DNA of 64,000 bases from Verrucomicrobiota bacterium (lineage in GTDB: Bacteria; Verrucomicrobiota; Verrucomicrobiia; Verrucomicrobiales; DEV007), in NCBI GenBank assembly GCA_003402735.1, contig QQNE01000009.1, positions 1-64,000 on the forward strand. Direction: 5' to 3'. Under the pieces are notes generated by a model. That model did no database searches. It saw only the letters and a list, made by a program, of their open reading frames with translations, and was not told where the DNA came from. A program made the translations under genes and the position numbers. Shown piece after piece: positions 5,548 to 55,554 of this stretch. The number at the start of each line of letters is the position of its first letter. Positions within the stretch are counted from its first letter, which is position 1.

Positions 5548-7212
5548 TCAATACACGTCGCGCTGGTAACGCTTGTCCTTCTTCATCTGCTTCACATAGT
5601 TCGCCGCGTCGTCCGTGCTCATGCCACCGTGCGTGGCGATCAATTCGTGCAGGGCGTCATCCACGTCCTTCGCCATTTTCGAGGCGTCGCCACACACGTA
5701 AAAATGCGCGCCTTCCTCCAGCCAGGCCCAGATGTCCCGGCCCTGTCTGGCCAGGAGATGCTGGACATAGACCTTCTCCCCCTGATCACGTGACCAGGCC
5801 AAATCCAGTCGGGTGAGGAAGCCACTGGCATGATAGGCCTCGAACTCGTCCTCGTAAAAATAGTCGAGGGCGCGGTGGGGGTTGCCGAAAAAGAGCCAGT
5901 TCCGACCCGTGGCCCCGACGGCTTCCCGTTCCTCAAGAAAGGCCCGAAACGGAGCAATCCCGGTTCCCGGACCCACCATGATCATGGGCACCGCGGGATC
6001 GGTGGGTGGCTTGAATCCTTTGGCCGCCTGCACGAAAACGCCGGCGGTGTCGCCATCCGGCAAACGATCCGCCAGGAAGGTGGAAGCTACGCCGAGGCGG
6101 CGGCGGCCGCGCGATTCATACTCCACACGCGCCACGGTGAGATGGACCTGATCGGGGTGTTTCTTGAGGCTGGAGGAGATCGAGTAAAGCCTCGGGTTCA
6201 GTTTGCCCAGGACCGCAACCAATTCCTCCGCGGCGTATTTCACCTGGGGAAACGCCAGGAAAAGATCGACGATCTCGCGTCCCTCGCACCAGGCTTGGAA
6301 ATCCTTGTTCATCTCCGGGAGCAGCAAGTGTTTCAGGTAGAAATCCTTGGCCCGGTCCGCGAAATCCTTGAGAAATTTTCGGGAGATGCCGGTGATCGAG
6401 TAGCTGCCGATGAGGGCCGCGCGCAAGGAAGTCTCCCTGTTCTCCGGGGTCAGGACGCTCTCCTCCCCGGAACAGCCGACACACTGCAACAACTCCTCCA
6501 CCAGCGCCGGATCGTTCCTCGGAACCAGCCCGAGGGAATCGCCCACCTCATAGCTCAGTCCGGAACCGGCCAGACTGAACTCCAAGTGCCGGGTGTCCTT
6601 GGGTGAACCCGGACCGCAAAGTCGCTTCTGAACCAGAAGCGAGGCGGGAAACGGATTCTTCTTGGAATAACCAGCCGGAACTTCTTCCTCCTCCTTTTCC
6701 CCGGCGGCGGCCACGGTGCCTGGCACCTGAACCGGAGCCAGTTGATGCAACGCGCCGGTGACGGAACTCCACCAAGCCTGGGCCGGTTCTTCAAACTCCA
6801 ACGGGCAATCGGTGCGCGGCGCAAACCGACGCGCCCCCAACTCCTCGAACCGACGATCCAGATTCTTGCCCATCCCGCAGAAAATCTTGTAATCCGTGTC
6901 GCCCAGCCCCAGGACGGAAAAACTGAGATTCTCCAGCCTCGGCGCTTCCGCGGATTCGAGGTGATTCCAGAAATCGACCGCGTTGTCCGGCGGCTCGCCC
7001 TCCCCCCAGGTGCTCGAGACGGCCAAGAGGTATTTCTCCCGGGTCAGATCGACCTCGCGAAATTTTGCCATGTCAACGACCGGGGCTTCATAGCCAAGGG
7101 CGGCGAGTTTGCGGCCAAAATTCTTGGCCAACTCTTCCGCGGTTCCGGATTGCGAGCCAAACATCACGACGACGCGGGCGTGTCCATTTTCCGGCAGGGA
7201 TTCTGTGTTCAC
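5548..7212 (-). CDS. cysJ: Sulfite reductase flavoprotein subunit-like diflavin reductase
   Basis: A 554-residue diflavin reductase that passes electrons from NADPH through FAD and FMN to a haem partner, classically the sulfite reductase haemoprotein CysI. Flavodoxin domain: FGSQSGTAEELAKNFG at 18-33, SSTWGEGEPPDN at 66-77, LGLGDTDY at 101-108. FAD domain: RLYSISSS at 341-348 and GVASTFL at 374-380. NADPH domain: GPGTGIAPFRAFL at 414-426 and YVCGDA near the end, closing with RDVY, whose last Tyr would stack on FAD. Length and domain order fit CysJ (about 600 residues). No cysI neighbour is present, so the electron acceptor is not shown by context. Confidence 0.85.
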   Translation of the reverse strand: MNTESLPENGHARVVVMFGSQSGTAEELAKNFGRKLAALGYEAPVVDMAKFREVDLTREKYLLAVSSTWGEGEPPDNAVDFWNHLESAEAPRLENLSFSVLGLGDTDYKIFCGMGKNLDRRFEELGARRFAPRTDCPLEFEEPAQAWWSSVTGALHQLAPVQVPGTVAAAGEKEEEEVPAGYSKKNPFPASLLVQKRLCGPGSPKDTRHLEFSLAGSGLSYEVGDSLGLVPRNDPALVEELLQCVGCSGEESVLTPENRETSLRAALIGSYSITGISRKFLKDFADRAKDFYLKHLLLPEMNKDFQAWCEGREIVDLFLAFPQVKYAAEELVAVLGKLNPRLYSISSSLKKHPDQVHLTVARVEYESRGRRRLGVASTFLADRLPDGDTAGVFVQAAKGFKPPTDPAVPMIMVGPGTGIAPFRAFLEEREAVGATGRNWLFFGNPHRALDYFYEDEFEAYHASGFLTRLDLAWSRDQGEKVYVQHLLARQGRDIWAWLEEGAHFYVCGDASKMAKDVDDALHELIATHGGMSTDDAANYVKQMKKDKRYQRDVY

Positions 7213-14683: not shown

Positions 14684-14739
14684 GGTCCTTCAGCGTTGAA
14701 GCAACGGCTTCGGGATTGATAAAAATAAGAAATATAAAT

Positions 14740-52134: not shown

Positions 52135-52443
52135 ATGGCATACGCAATTATCAAAGTCGGCGGCAAGCAGTTTCGAGTCAGCGAGGGTGACTTGGTCGAT
52201 GTCGAAAAGCTCGACGCCCAGAAAGGCGATACCGTGAAGTTCGAACACGTTCTCCTGGTGTCCCGTGACGGTTCCACCACCATCGGGTCCCCCAACGTCG
52301 CCGGTGCCGCCGTCACCGCTGAAGTCATCGAGCAACGCCGCTCACCCAAGGTGACCGCCTTCAAGTTCAAGCGCCGCAAAGGCTTCCACAAAACCAAGGG
52401 ACATCGGCAACCCGTCACCCGCGTCTCCATCAAAGGAATCTGA
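52135..52443 (+). CDS. rplU: Ribosomal protein bL21
   Basis: A 102-residue large-subunit protein of normal length. It begins MAYAIIKVGGKQFRVSEGDLVDVEKLDAQKGD and contains FEHVLLVSRDG, VTAEVIEQRRSPKVTAFKFKRRKGFHKTKGHRQPVTRVSIKGI. A strong ribosome-binding site (GGGGAGG) precedes ATG 52135. It forms the conserved pair with rpmA, 42 bases downstream. Confidence 0.97.
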   Translation: MAYAIIKVGGKQFRVSEGDLVDVEKLDAQKGDTVKFEHVLLVSRDGSTTIGSPNVAGAAVTAEVIEQRRSPKVTAFKFKRRKGFHKTKGHRQPVTRVSIKGI

Positions 52444-52485: not shown

Positions 52486-52746
52486 ATGGCTCACAAGAAA
52501 GGTCAAGGTAGTGTCAAGAACGGTCGCGACTCCCGCAGCAAGCGTCTCGGAGTCAAACGGTTCGGCGGCGAAAGCGTCCTCGCGGGCTCCATCATCATCC
52601 GCCAGTGCGGCACCAAGTGGCAGCCCGGCAAAAATGTCGGATGCGGACGCGATTACACCCTCTTTGCCCTCGTCGATGGCAATGTCCGCTTCGATCGCAA
52701 CGGCCGACGCGTGAACATCGATCCGCTCGCCGCTGGCGCGAACTGA
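52486..52746 (+). CDS. rpmA: Ribosomal protein bL27
   Basis: An 86-residue large-subunit protein placed at the peptidyl-transferase centre. [40 protein letters not shown] then [28 protein letters not shown] is canonical. There is no N-terminal propeptide of the Firmicutes type, as MAHKKG is at the start. It is followed by the terminator at 52798. Confidence 0.97.
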
Positions 52747-52836: not shown

Positions 52837-53298
52837 ATGTTCCACGTCGTCCTGGTCGAACCCGAGATCCCGCCCAACACAGGCAACATCGCCCGCCTCT
52901 GTCTGGCCACCGGCTCCGTCTTGCACCTGGTAGAACCTCTCGGATTTTCCATAGATGATCGCTCCTTGAAACGGGCCGGCCTCGATTACTGGACCGATGT
53001 GGATGTGCGGGTGTGGCCCTGCCTCAACACCCTCTTTGCAGCGATCGGCCAGCCCCGCCAATTTTTCCTGACAACCAAAGCGACCCGCCCTTACTGGGAC
53101 CAAACTTATCAACCCGGGGATTATCTGTTCTTTGGCAGGGAAACCCGCGGACTTCCCGAGAGCCTGTTGCAGGCACATCCGGACCAATGCCTGACAATCC
53201 CCATGTTGGCGCAAACGACCCGCAGCCTGAACTTGGCGACAGCCGTTGGGATCGTGCTCTATGAAGCAATCCGGCAAGCCAATGTGAATGCTGGTTGA
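52837..53298 (+). CDS. trmL: tRNA (cytidine/uridine-2'-O-)-methyltransferase of the SPOUT family
   Basis: A 153-residue enzyme that methylates the 2'-OH of nucleotide 34 in the wobble position of tRNA-Leu. The trefoil-knot SPOUT motifs are present: FHVVLVEPEIPPNTGNIARLCLATG at the start, LHLVEPLGFSIDDRSLKRAGLDYW, YLFFGRETRGLPESLL and the terminal IPMLAQTTRSLNLATAVGIVLYEAIRQ. Length matches TrmL (about 157). The ATG is right after the rpmA terminator. Confidence 0.93.
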   Translation: MFHVVLVEPEIPPNTGNIARLCLATGSVLHLVEPLGFSIDDRSLKRAGLDYWTDVDVRVWPCLNTLFAAIGQPRQFFLTTKATRPYWDQTYQPGDYLFFGRETRGLPESLLQAHPDQCLTIPMLAQTTRSLNLATAVGIVLYEAIRQANVNAG

Positions 53299-53422
53299 GA
53301 GAGGGGCGTCCTACTCGATCGACACCTTGGCGTGGCAGGACGTTTCCAGACATTGGGCTAGGTTTTGGGAAGCTGGGAGAATCTGAAAAATCTAAATAAT
53401 TAACATAAATTAAATATTTTAG

Positions 53423-53450
53423 TTGCAGTAGTCTGGGCGCATTCTATAAT
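53423..53450 (+). promoter_or_regulatory. Strong promoter of the twin AP2-like gene
   Basis: TTGCAG (53423-53428) and a perfect TATAAT (53445-53450) are 16 bases apart. An AT-rich stretch (about 53385-53420) immediately upstream could act as an UP element. The start site would be near 53457, giving a leader of roughly 43 bases before ATG 53500. Confidence 0.7.
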
Positions 53451-53499
53451 TGCCATGCGTATAGCGCCCCACTAAACAAACCAACAAAAGCATAAAACG

Positions 53500-53970
53500 A
53501 TGAGCATGGTAGCACCACGAGCCAACTACGGGATCACCCGTATTGACCAACCTGAGAAGAAAAACCACGGGTATTATGTCCGGATCACCCACCGCGGCAC
53601 GACCCACCAGAAGTACTTCCCGGACAAGTCCAGCGGAGGCAAGGCCAAGGCCCTCAAGCTGGCCAAGGCCTATCGCGATGAACTTCTCGCCCAGATGCCG
53701 AAGGCGAAGCAAGAGATGGCCGCCCGCAAAAAGCGCAAGGCTCTTCAGTCCGGTGTGACTGGTGTCACGCACGTGGTGAGCAAAGTGGGCGAAAACAAGG
53801 AATATCAATACTGGCAGGCCGCCTGGGCGGACGAGAATGGCAAGCGCCGCACCGCCAAGTTCTCGATCGGCCGTTACGGCAAGGAGAAGGCCCTCGAGAT
53901 GGCCATCAAGGCCCGCAAGAAGGCCACTCGCGGCTCCGCCAAGAGCAAGAAGGTTGCGGTCGCCAGCTGA
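53500..53970 (+). CDS. Twin AP2/ERF-like DNA-binding protein
   Basis: A basic 156-residue protein with two similar domains of about 55 residues: one at ~9-64 (YGITRIDQPEKKNHGYYVRI then THQKYFPD and a Lys-rich helix) and one at ~85-140 (GVTGVTHVVSKVGENKEYQYWQAAW then RTAKFSIGRYGKEKALEMAIKAR). Each has the three-strand-plus-helix pattern of bacterial AP2 domains. There is no integrase part, so it is a stand-alone DNA-binding or chromatin-like protein. The tail KKATRGSAKSKKVAVAS is basic. A near-consensus promoter, AT-rich UP-like sequence and a good terminator (54039) suggest high expression as a single-gene transcript. Confidence 0.7.
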   Translation: MSMVAPRANYGITRIDQPEKKNHGYYVRITHRGTTHQKYFPDKSSGGKAKALKLAKAYRDELLAQMPKAKQEMAARKKRKALQSGVTGVTHVVSKVGENKEYQYWQAAWADENGKRRTAKFSIGRYGKEKALEMAIKARKKATRGSAKSKKVAVAS

Positions 53971-54038
53971 ACCCTGGATCGCATCCTCCGCGCGACCCGG
54001 CTCCGTCCCGGGGAAACGCTCTTGTGAATTGCACGATG

Positions 54039-54079
54039 AAACCGGCATTTGCCTGAGGGCGAATGCCGGTTTCTTTTTT
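54039..54079 (+). terminator. Intrinsic terminator after the AP2-like gene
   Basis: AAACCGGCATT (54039-54049) pairs with AATGCCGGTTT (54062-54072) around a 12-base loop, followed by C and six T. The 11-pair stem with T-run isolates the AP2-like gene from the ATP-grasp operon starting at 54118. Confidence 0.9.
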
Positions 54080-54117
54080 ACTTTTGGCACGACAGATGCT
54101 TCTAAGAGGCAAACCCA

Positions 54118-55554
54118 ATGCTATTCCAAGACTACGAGAAGGGAGATTTCTTCGACGAAATGTTCGCCTCCGACGATGGCGACGTTTTCCCACACTACCA
54201 CCCGCTTTACCAACGATTTCAAAGCCTCGAGAAGGAGCAGTTTCAAGAGCGTCAGCAGCGCATCGATGACACCTTTCTAAAGAACGGCATCACCTTCACG
54301 GTTTACGGTGACAAGGACGGCACCGAGCGAATCTTTCCTTTCGACCTGATTCCCCGGGTGATTCCGGACCGGGAATGGCGGGTGGTGCAGGATGGACTGA
54401 CCCAGCGGATCATCGCCCTCAATCTTTTCCTGCATGATATTTATCACGAGCAACGAATCCTCAAGGACGGTGTGGTCCCCAGAGATATCGTGGAAACGGC
54501 GGCGCATTACCGTCCGGAAATGCAAAACGTCAATGTGCCGCGTGATATTTACATTCATGTCTGCGGAACGGACCTGATCCGGGATCGGGACGGAAACTAT
54601 CTGGTGCTGGAAGACAACGGCCGGTGCCCCTCGGGAGTCTCCTATCTTCTGGAGAACCGGGAGGCGATGAAGCGGGCCTTCCCCCGCCTCTACAGCGGAA
54701 TGAACGTTCGCCCGGTGGATGCCTACCCGGAACTTCTGCTGAAAACCATTCAGCACCTCTCGCCACGCCAATCACAAACCCCTGTCTGCGTGCTGCTGAC
54801 GCCGGGTGTCTACAACAGCGCCTATTTCGAGCACACCTTTCTGGCCCGGCAAATGGGAATCCAGATCGTGGAGGGCCGGGACTTGGTCGCGATCGACGGT
54901 TATGTCTACATGCGCACCATTCGTGGCTTGGTGCAGGTGGATGTGATTTATCGGCGCATCGATGACGACTTCATCGACCCCAAGGTTTTCCGGCCGGACT
55001 CCGTGCTTGGCGTGCCGGGTCTGATCGACGCCTATCTGCGCGGAAACGTAGCCCTGGCAAACGCGGTGGGCACCGGTGTGGCGGACGACAAGGTGACCTA
55101 CTGTTATGTGCCCGAGATCATCCGCTATTATCTGGACCAGGATCCGATCCTCGACAATGTGCGCACCTATCTTGGGTGGAAGCCGGACGACCAGAAATAC
55201 ATGTTGGAAAATCTTGAGAGTCTGGTGATCAAGGCAGCGAATGAATCCGGAGGTTACGGCATGCTGATGGGCCCGTCCTCGACTGCGGAGGAGCGCTCGA
55301 TCTTCGCCGCCAAGATCAAGGCGAATCCGAGAAACTACATTGGTCAACCGGTCATCTCACTCTCCCGCCACCCCACCGTTTGCGGGGACACCATCGAAGG
55401 CCGCCATGTCGATCTGCGCCCGTTCGTTCTCTACGGGGAAGATGTCCGCATCATCCCCGGAGGTTTGACCCGGGTGGCCCTGCGCAAGGGATCCCTTGTG
55501 GTCAATTCCTCTCAGGGAGGCGGCAGCAAGGATACCTGGGTTCTCTATCAATAA
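54118..55554 (+). CDS. Circularly permuted ATP-grasp type 2 protein
   Basis: A 478-residue protein of the DUF404/DUF407 circularly permuted ATP-grasp family, thought to make amide or peptide bonds in a pathway shared with alpha-E and transglutaminase-like proteins. Features: [49 protein letters not shown] (glycine-rich/acidic motif), [33 protein letters not shown]-like [35 protein letters not shown] and [23 protein letters not shown] at the end. Length is typical. It opens a three-gene operon; the next ORF starts 9 bases after its stop. Confidence 0.9.

Follow-up and report, generated by a model that had tools for sequence, protein, structure and literature searches.

A stand-alone twin AP2-like protein in a ribosomal gene locus of Verrucomicrobiota: a tentative candidate for a nucleoid-associated protein

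The locus

The window analysed here, a stretch of 64,000 nucleotides from a genome of the Verrucomicrobiota (contig QQNE01000009.1), carries a short gene for a twin AP2-like protein behind the genes for two ribosomal proteins and a tRNA methyltransferase. The relevant genes and elements are the following:

52135 to 52443, + strand: rplU (L21), upstream neighbour by synteny, named from sequence recognition
52486 to 52746, + strand: rpmA (L27), upstream neighbour by synteny, named from sequence recognition
52837 to 53298, + strand: TrmL-family tRNA 2'-O-methyltransferase gene, immediate upstream neighbour (TIGR00185 and synteny)
53398 to 53428, + strand: AT-rich upstream block AATTAACANAAATTAAATATTNTAGTTGCAG (upstream-region alignment and whole-genome pattern search)
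53423 to 53428, + strand: probable -35 box TTGCAG (3 of 6 positions), read from the sequence
53445 to 53450, + strand: -10 box TATAAT, with a 16-bp spacer to TTGCAG, kept in both congeners
53500 to 53970, + strand: gene for the twin AP2-like protein (open reading frame; Pfam AP2 above cut-off)
53527 to 53691, + strand: domain 1 (residues 10-64), beta-beta-beta-alpha, AP2-like by predicted fold
53752 to 53931, + strand: domain 2 (residues 85-144), AP2 domain (Pfam PF00847 and AlphaFold2)
54038 to 54079, + strand: intrinsic terminator, a 16-pair stem followed by a T run, kept in the congeners
54118 to 55554, + strand: ATP-grasp-like gene, downstream neighbour in the window's genus

With 156 amino acids, a pI of 10.4 (median over the orthologues 10.6) and 24% lysine plus arginine, the protein is small, basic and single-purpose in the manner of nucleoid-associated proteins. 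The match of the upstream methyltransferase gene to TIGR00185 (3.8e-53) lies slightly under the cut-off, and the downstream gene, for which no NCBIfam match was obtained, is one that we take to be of the ATP-grasp kind. The first-pass annotation had described a protein standing alone, outside any mobile element and among housekeeping neighbours, with a perfect TATAAT box, an AT-rich upstream tract and a dedicated terminator, and all of these features were recovered.

Fold and relatives

AP2 domains are familiar from transcription factors of plants and parasites; those of bacteria are known as components of enzymes encoded by mobile elements. The window protein scored 35.7 bits against Pfam PF00847 (curated cut-off 33.3), with residues 103-142 of domain 2 as the best stretch, and thus the AP2 similarity originally noticed from the sequence was upheld by a profile search; of its relatives, 47 out of 54 matched AP2 at E<=0.01. 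Domain 1 of the window protein, taken alone, was unmatched by Pfam AP2 at E<=1, that of one relative reached E 0.068, and the profile comparison of domain 1 with domain 2 was weak (probability 15%), so that the two are not both recognisable by sequence, domain 1 going undetected. In the AlphaFold2 model (computed with 54 relatives, mean pLDDT 79) a beta-beta-beta-alpha unit occurs twice and fills the protein, and both units are predicted to form the three-stranded sheet packed on one helix that marks the family. The view that two AP2-like domains make up the whole protein consequently holds for domain 2 by Pfam and for domain 1 by predicted fold alone. No nuclease (HNH), tyrosine-integrase or other domain was detected in the window protein with Pfam, NCBIfam and PHROGs, and no NCBIfam family was found for it. 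Matches of phmmer to artificial alphaRep proteins were traced to low-complexity helix similarity and were gone when the family profile was used.

A Foldseek search of the PDB placed Toxoplasma mitoribosomal AP2 chains at the top (9i05_Xn, E 1.5e-4; 9g6k_Lk, E 2.1e-4) and also retrieved Plasmodium SIP2, solved as a tandem AP2 repeat in complex with DNA (6sy0, E 1.7e-3). The alignments with these solved tandem AP2 proteins span both domains, and the overall TM-scores of the structural matches are low because of the domain arrangement. Since the mitoribosome and SIP2 scores are close, the fold does not discriminate between DNA and rRNA.

Several relatives (L096/L015, L100/L018, L017, L058-L060) possess Lys/Ala/Pro tails of the histone-H1 type, 30-100 residues long, and in L137, L139, L140, L142 and L144 such a tail replaces domain 2, while domain 1 stays 61-62% identical; the tail of the window protein itself is short. 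This interchange of domain 2 and tail suggests that domain 2 mainly contributes nucleic-acid grip. Similar tails are carried by known bacterial DNA-binding proteins, for example mycobacterial HupB, and AlgP. Long KKAAPAKKAA tails like those of histone H1 were also seen in paralogues at L058-L060 and L187.

Conservation in relatives, on which the earlier proposal hinged, is evident from homologues in 50 of 57 related genomes and from a family profile search of the phylum with matches in 61 of 388 genomes, mostly of the same order and class. The rplU-linked group forms a separate branch of the tree (100/99 support), at least one further group co-occurs with it in the same genomes, and diverged AP2 paralogues, several per genome, lie mostly outside ribosomal loci. 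A related group II protein is found in Haloferula species (L136 and L141). Among 49 loci of close orthologues, namely those of the rplU-linked group whose upstream sequence was long enough, 41 retain the order rplU-rpmA-trmL-AP2, a conserved linkage to ribosomal genes such as ribosomal proteins display, and in other genera a LolD-like ABC ATPase gene lies downstream of the AP2 gene (41 of 49 loci). Related families are without the AP2 gene at the rplU-linked locus. The twin-AP2 gene thus has the character of a housekeeping gene passed on vertically, fixed next to the genes for L21 and L27 across a large family of Verrucomicrobiales.

Among the records searched beyond the phylum, the only matches were to Rhizobiaceae plasmids and, weakly, to phage HNH endonucleases, the latter resembling domain 2. 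Both plasmid frames examined are longer, at about 300 amino acids or more: one is an annotated AP2 protein of 313 amino acids in Rhizobium (NZ_CP104990.1, 487988-488929), the other an unannotated AP2 open frame of ~300 amino acids (NC_011981.1, near 509590). A viral origin was discarded, with no confirmed relatives among viral contigs. In L052 (G316) an AP2 protein of ~308 amino acids with a C-terminal HNH nuclease domain is encoded at 1434-2364 on the minus strand (AP2 36.9 bits, HNH 25.6 bits, both over cut-off), likely an evolutionary link to homing endonucleases. Short proteins with a single domain-1-like unit were encountered at L175 (5862-6278, minus strand) and in other genomes of genus g19, which hold up to 7 domain-1-like matches each. 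The G162 genome holds a single-domain relative, and at L180 (G299; 5671-5931, minus strand) a single-domain relative is encoded divergently from an adjoining rpoA-like frame, presumably rpoA as judged from sequence recognition.

Control and expression of the gene

The AT-rich block is conserved in the window's genus and occurs in a single copy per genome (3 genomes), always before the AP2 gene; together with TATAAT it has been conserved while the dS of neighbouring genes in this genus reached ~1. A strict promoter scan missed the TATAAT promoter because its -35 box is weak. The terminator stem is retained with altered sequence in both congeners, L067 and L068. A conserved terminator beyond the genus was rejected, as a hairpin with T run was present in 16 of 54 downstream regions and several of these were weak.

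In a large sister clade (~22 orthologues) the AP2 gene is preceded by a 30-bp promoter element, CTTGTC-N4-TTTTNAAAAAACG-TAGACA, spelled CTTGTC-N4-TTTT-N-AAAAAA-CG-N-TAGACA and located 65-98 bp upstream of the start codon. With <=3 mismatches allowed, 11 of the 12 genome searches, in which two genomes each figured twice, gave a single match, and all places checked against gene coordinates were upstream of the AP2 gene; a relaxed form, searched across 1.08 Mb of related loci, gave one extra match, which lies in L106 at a distance of 3 kb from the gene. Its left half and centre hardly vary, and variation in its right half sets in after TA, so that the element looks like a promoter (-35 CTTGT, -10 TA....) whose A-tract spacer is conserved to an unusual degree. 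It often holds the inverted repeat TTGTC...GACAA and could possibly double as an operator.

Upstream of rplU, a conserved T4-5A6 tract followed by CTTGCCG was noted in L069-L107, which resembles the tract of the AP2 promoter. As a regulon marker, T4A6CG was dismissed, with 6-8 sites per genome in 3 genomes and no coherent set beyond rplU and the AP2 gene. Upstream of the AP2 gene, L102, L105, L106, L109, L111, L112, L113 and L128 share a conserved leader of another kind, which carries the hairpin CGGC-CCTTAAT-GCCG; no Rfam match was obtained for the upstream leader, and RNA-level autoregulation was abandoned, since the hairpin in the alignment of 8 species has 4 pairs, one of them changed on both sides, which is too weak.

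Compared with two congeners, the twin-AP2 gene has dN/dS values of 0.05 and 0.03. Its dS values of 0.40 and 0.64 resemble those of rpmA (0.39, 0.54), with rplU at 0.81 and 0.65, and are exceeded by those of trmL, mlaF, the ATP-grasp gene and alphaE (0.73-1.52). By these substitution rates the gene evolves like a ribosomal gene and is under strong purifying selection. Mean codon usage, computed over 35 loci whose relatedness makes the p-value overstate their independence, was -0.011 for the AP2 gene, 0.046 and 0.072 for the ribosomal genes and -0.070 for the background, a leaning towards rplU/rpmA, and in both congeners the AP2 gene scored above all 6-7 background frames. The protein had been called highly expressed; codon usage and low dS point the same way, and on these signs drawn from sequence the gene is apparently well expressed.

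Discussion

The reading favoured here, to which we give a little less than an even chance, is that of an abundant nucleoid-associated-type protein that binds DNA and is regulated at its own promoter. Its observed basis consists of the sequence, the fold prediction, conservation, the locus, purifying selection, codon bias and the unique promoter elements. The protein would be growth-linked and would coat nucleic acid, its two small basic AP2-like domains lying side by side on double-stranded DNA with a sequence preference that is low or moderate and probably directed at A-tracts or AT-rich sites. The gene would be transcribed from its own promoter within the rplU-rpmA-trmL locus, and the level of the protein would be held constant through the unique conserved site over that promoter. 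That the protein binds DNA, that it is abundant and that it regulates its own gene are inferences; DNA is the most likely ligand and RNA a less likely one.

The model is preferred because the interchange of domain 2 and tail suggests nucleic-acid grip, and the H1-like tails of relatives favour nucleic-acid coating. The pairing of trmL with the AP2 gene resembles that of dusB with fis in enterobacteria. Against the nucleoid model stand the position in a ribosomal locus and the top hits of the fold search, which are rRNA-binding mitoribosomal AP2 proteins, and a single site per genome would also fit a dedicated promoter without autoregulation. A replacement of HU was considered and rejected, HU-family proteins being present as well. 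The first-pass suggestion of an abundant nucleoid or RNA-binding protein thus survives as a best guess, backed by the H1-like tails and by tandem AP2 structural relatives that bind DNA and rRNA, and its remark that such a protein was not yet described agrees with our searches, in which no described family was found. The proposed link to an AT-rich island near 14715 was not supported: GC falls locally there (48.7% over 300 bp, about 62% around), but no shared binding motif was found, and the sole AT-rich block with evidence of selection is that in the gene's own promoter.

The leading alternative, which we regard as possible though doubtful, is a ribosome- or rRNA-associated protein, either a lineage-specific accessory ribosomal protein or an assembly factor, whose AP2 domains would bind the rRNA backbone via arginines as in the Toxoplasma mitoribosome. 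It would explain the position behind L21, L27 and a tRNA methyltransferase, maintained in 41 of 49 loci, and is consistent with the top Foldseek hits (9i05_Xn, 9g6k_Lk), the Toxoplasma AP2 proteins being proven rRNA binders in the mitoribosome (PMC11652630), as well as with the ribosomal-like dS and codon usage and with the T4-5A6 tract common to the rplU and AP2 promoters of one clade. However, several diverged paralogues per genome lie mostly outside ribosomal loci, related families lack the gene at the rplU-linked locus, the H1-like tails suit DNA no less well, and the evidence for upstream RNA structure is weak.

A sequence-specific transcription factor acting globally or locally is less probable still; its two AP2 domains would occupy two half-sites, and its own promoter would be one target. 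AP2 domains are classic sequence-specific binders, SIP2 uses its AP2 tandem to bind two half-sites (6sy0), and the promoter element often has the inverted repeat; but each genome has the full element once, so that no regulon with that site is seen, its right half shows the free variation of a -10 box, an effector or activation domain is absent, and ribosomal-like codon usage and dS suggest levels above those of a usual local regulator. The recently stranded DNA-binding half of an AP2-HNH homing endonuclease, without host function, is very improbable: longer relatives exist in the AP2-HNH nuclease of a related family (L052), the phage HNH endonucleases and the 313-amino-acid Rhizobium plasmid protein, and a shared ancestor with AP2-HNH nucleases is plausible, yet strong purifying selection, a locus fixed across many species and no relatives in viral contigs leave a functionless remnant not plausible.

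Returning to the nucleoid-type model and its ribosomal counterpart, we consider it slightly better than an even chance that the gene represents either a class, new for Verrucomicrobiales, of abundant, self-controlled architectural proteins of the chromosome built on tandem AP2 domains, in which an H1-like tail may replace one domain, or a bacterial AP2 ribosome-associated protein.

Comparison with known systems

Among open-licence papers, none was found that links AP2 domains to Verrucomicrobia, Akkermansia or stand-alone bacterial use, or that describes the twin-AP2 protein experimentally. The AP2 domain is already known; what appears new is its housekeeping use in a protein of its own, as well as the locus. 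The protein most likely coats or organises DNA (or, with less likelihood, binds RNA), and such a role appears undescribed so far for bacterial AP2 proteins. A stable housekeeping AP2 protein across a bacterial order would reveal a role of non-mobile bacterial AP2, and a little-studied phylum would gain a directly testable candidate for a nucleoid or ribosome protein. It also bears on whether the first ligand of AP2 was DNA or RNA, which studies of the mitoribosome have brought into question (PMC11652630).

With the plant and apicomplexan AP2/ERF domains (PF00847) and SIP2 (6sy0) the window protein shares the beta3-alpha fold, the two-domain tandem and a domain 2 over the Pfam cut-off, whereas it is bacterial, comprises 156 amino acids and nothing else, has a domain 1 undetectable by sequence and resides in a ribosomal housekeeping locus. 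AP2-HNH homing endonucleases and the AP2-type arm-binding domains of integrases are likewise bacterial AP2 domains, and a twin-AP2-HNH relative is present in the same class (L052), but the window protein is without nuclease or integrase domain, non-mobile and vertically kept. HupB and AlgP are similarly small, very basic and growth-linked, with KKAAPAKKAA tails recurring in some twin-AP2 relatives, although their DNA-binding fold is different and HU is also found in twin-AP2 genomes. Closest in fold are mtAP2-1 to -4 of Toxoplasma gondii (PDB 9i05, 9g6k, 9hqv), which are small, without enzymatic domains and connected to the ribosome; they are, in contrast, eukaryotic, nuclear-encoded and proven rRNA binders, whereas here the ribosome is hinted at by gene neighbourhood alone. 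A ribosome-associated version, if true, would parallel these AP2 proteins of the apicomplexan mitoribosome and be equally novel.
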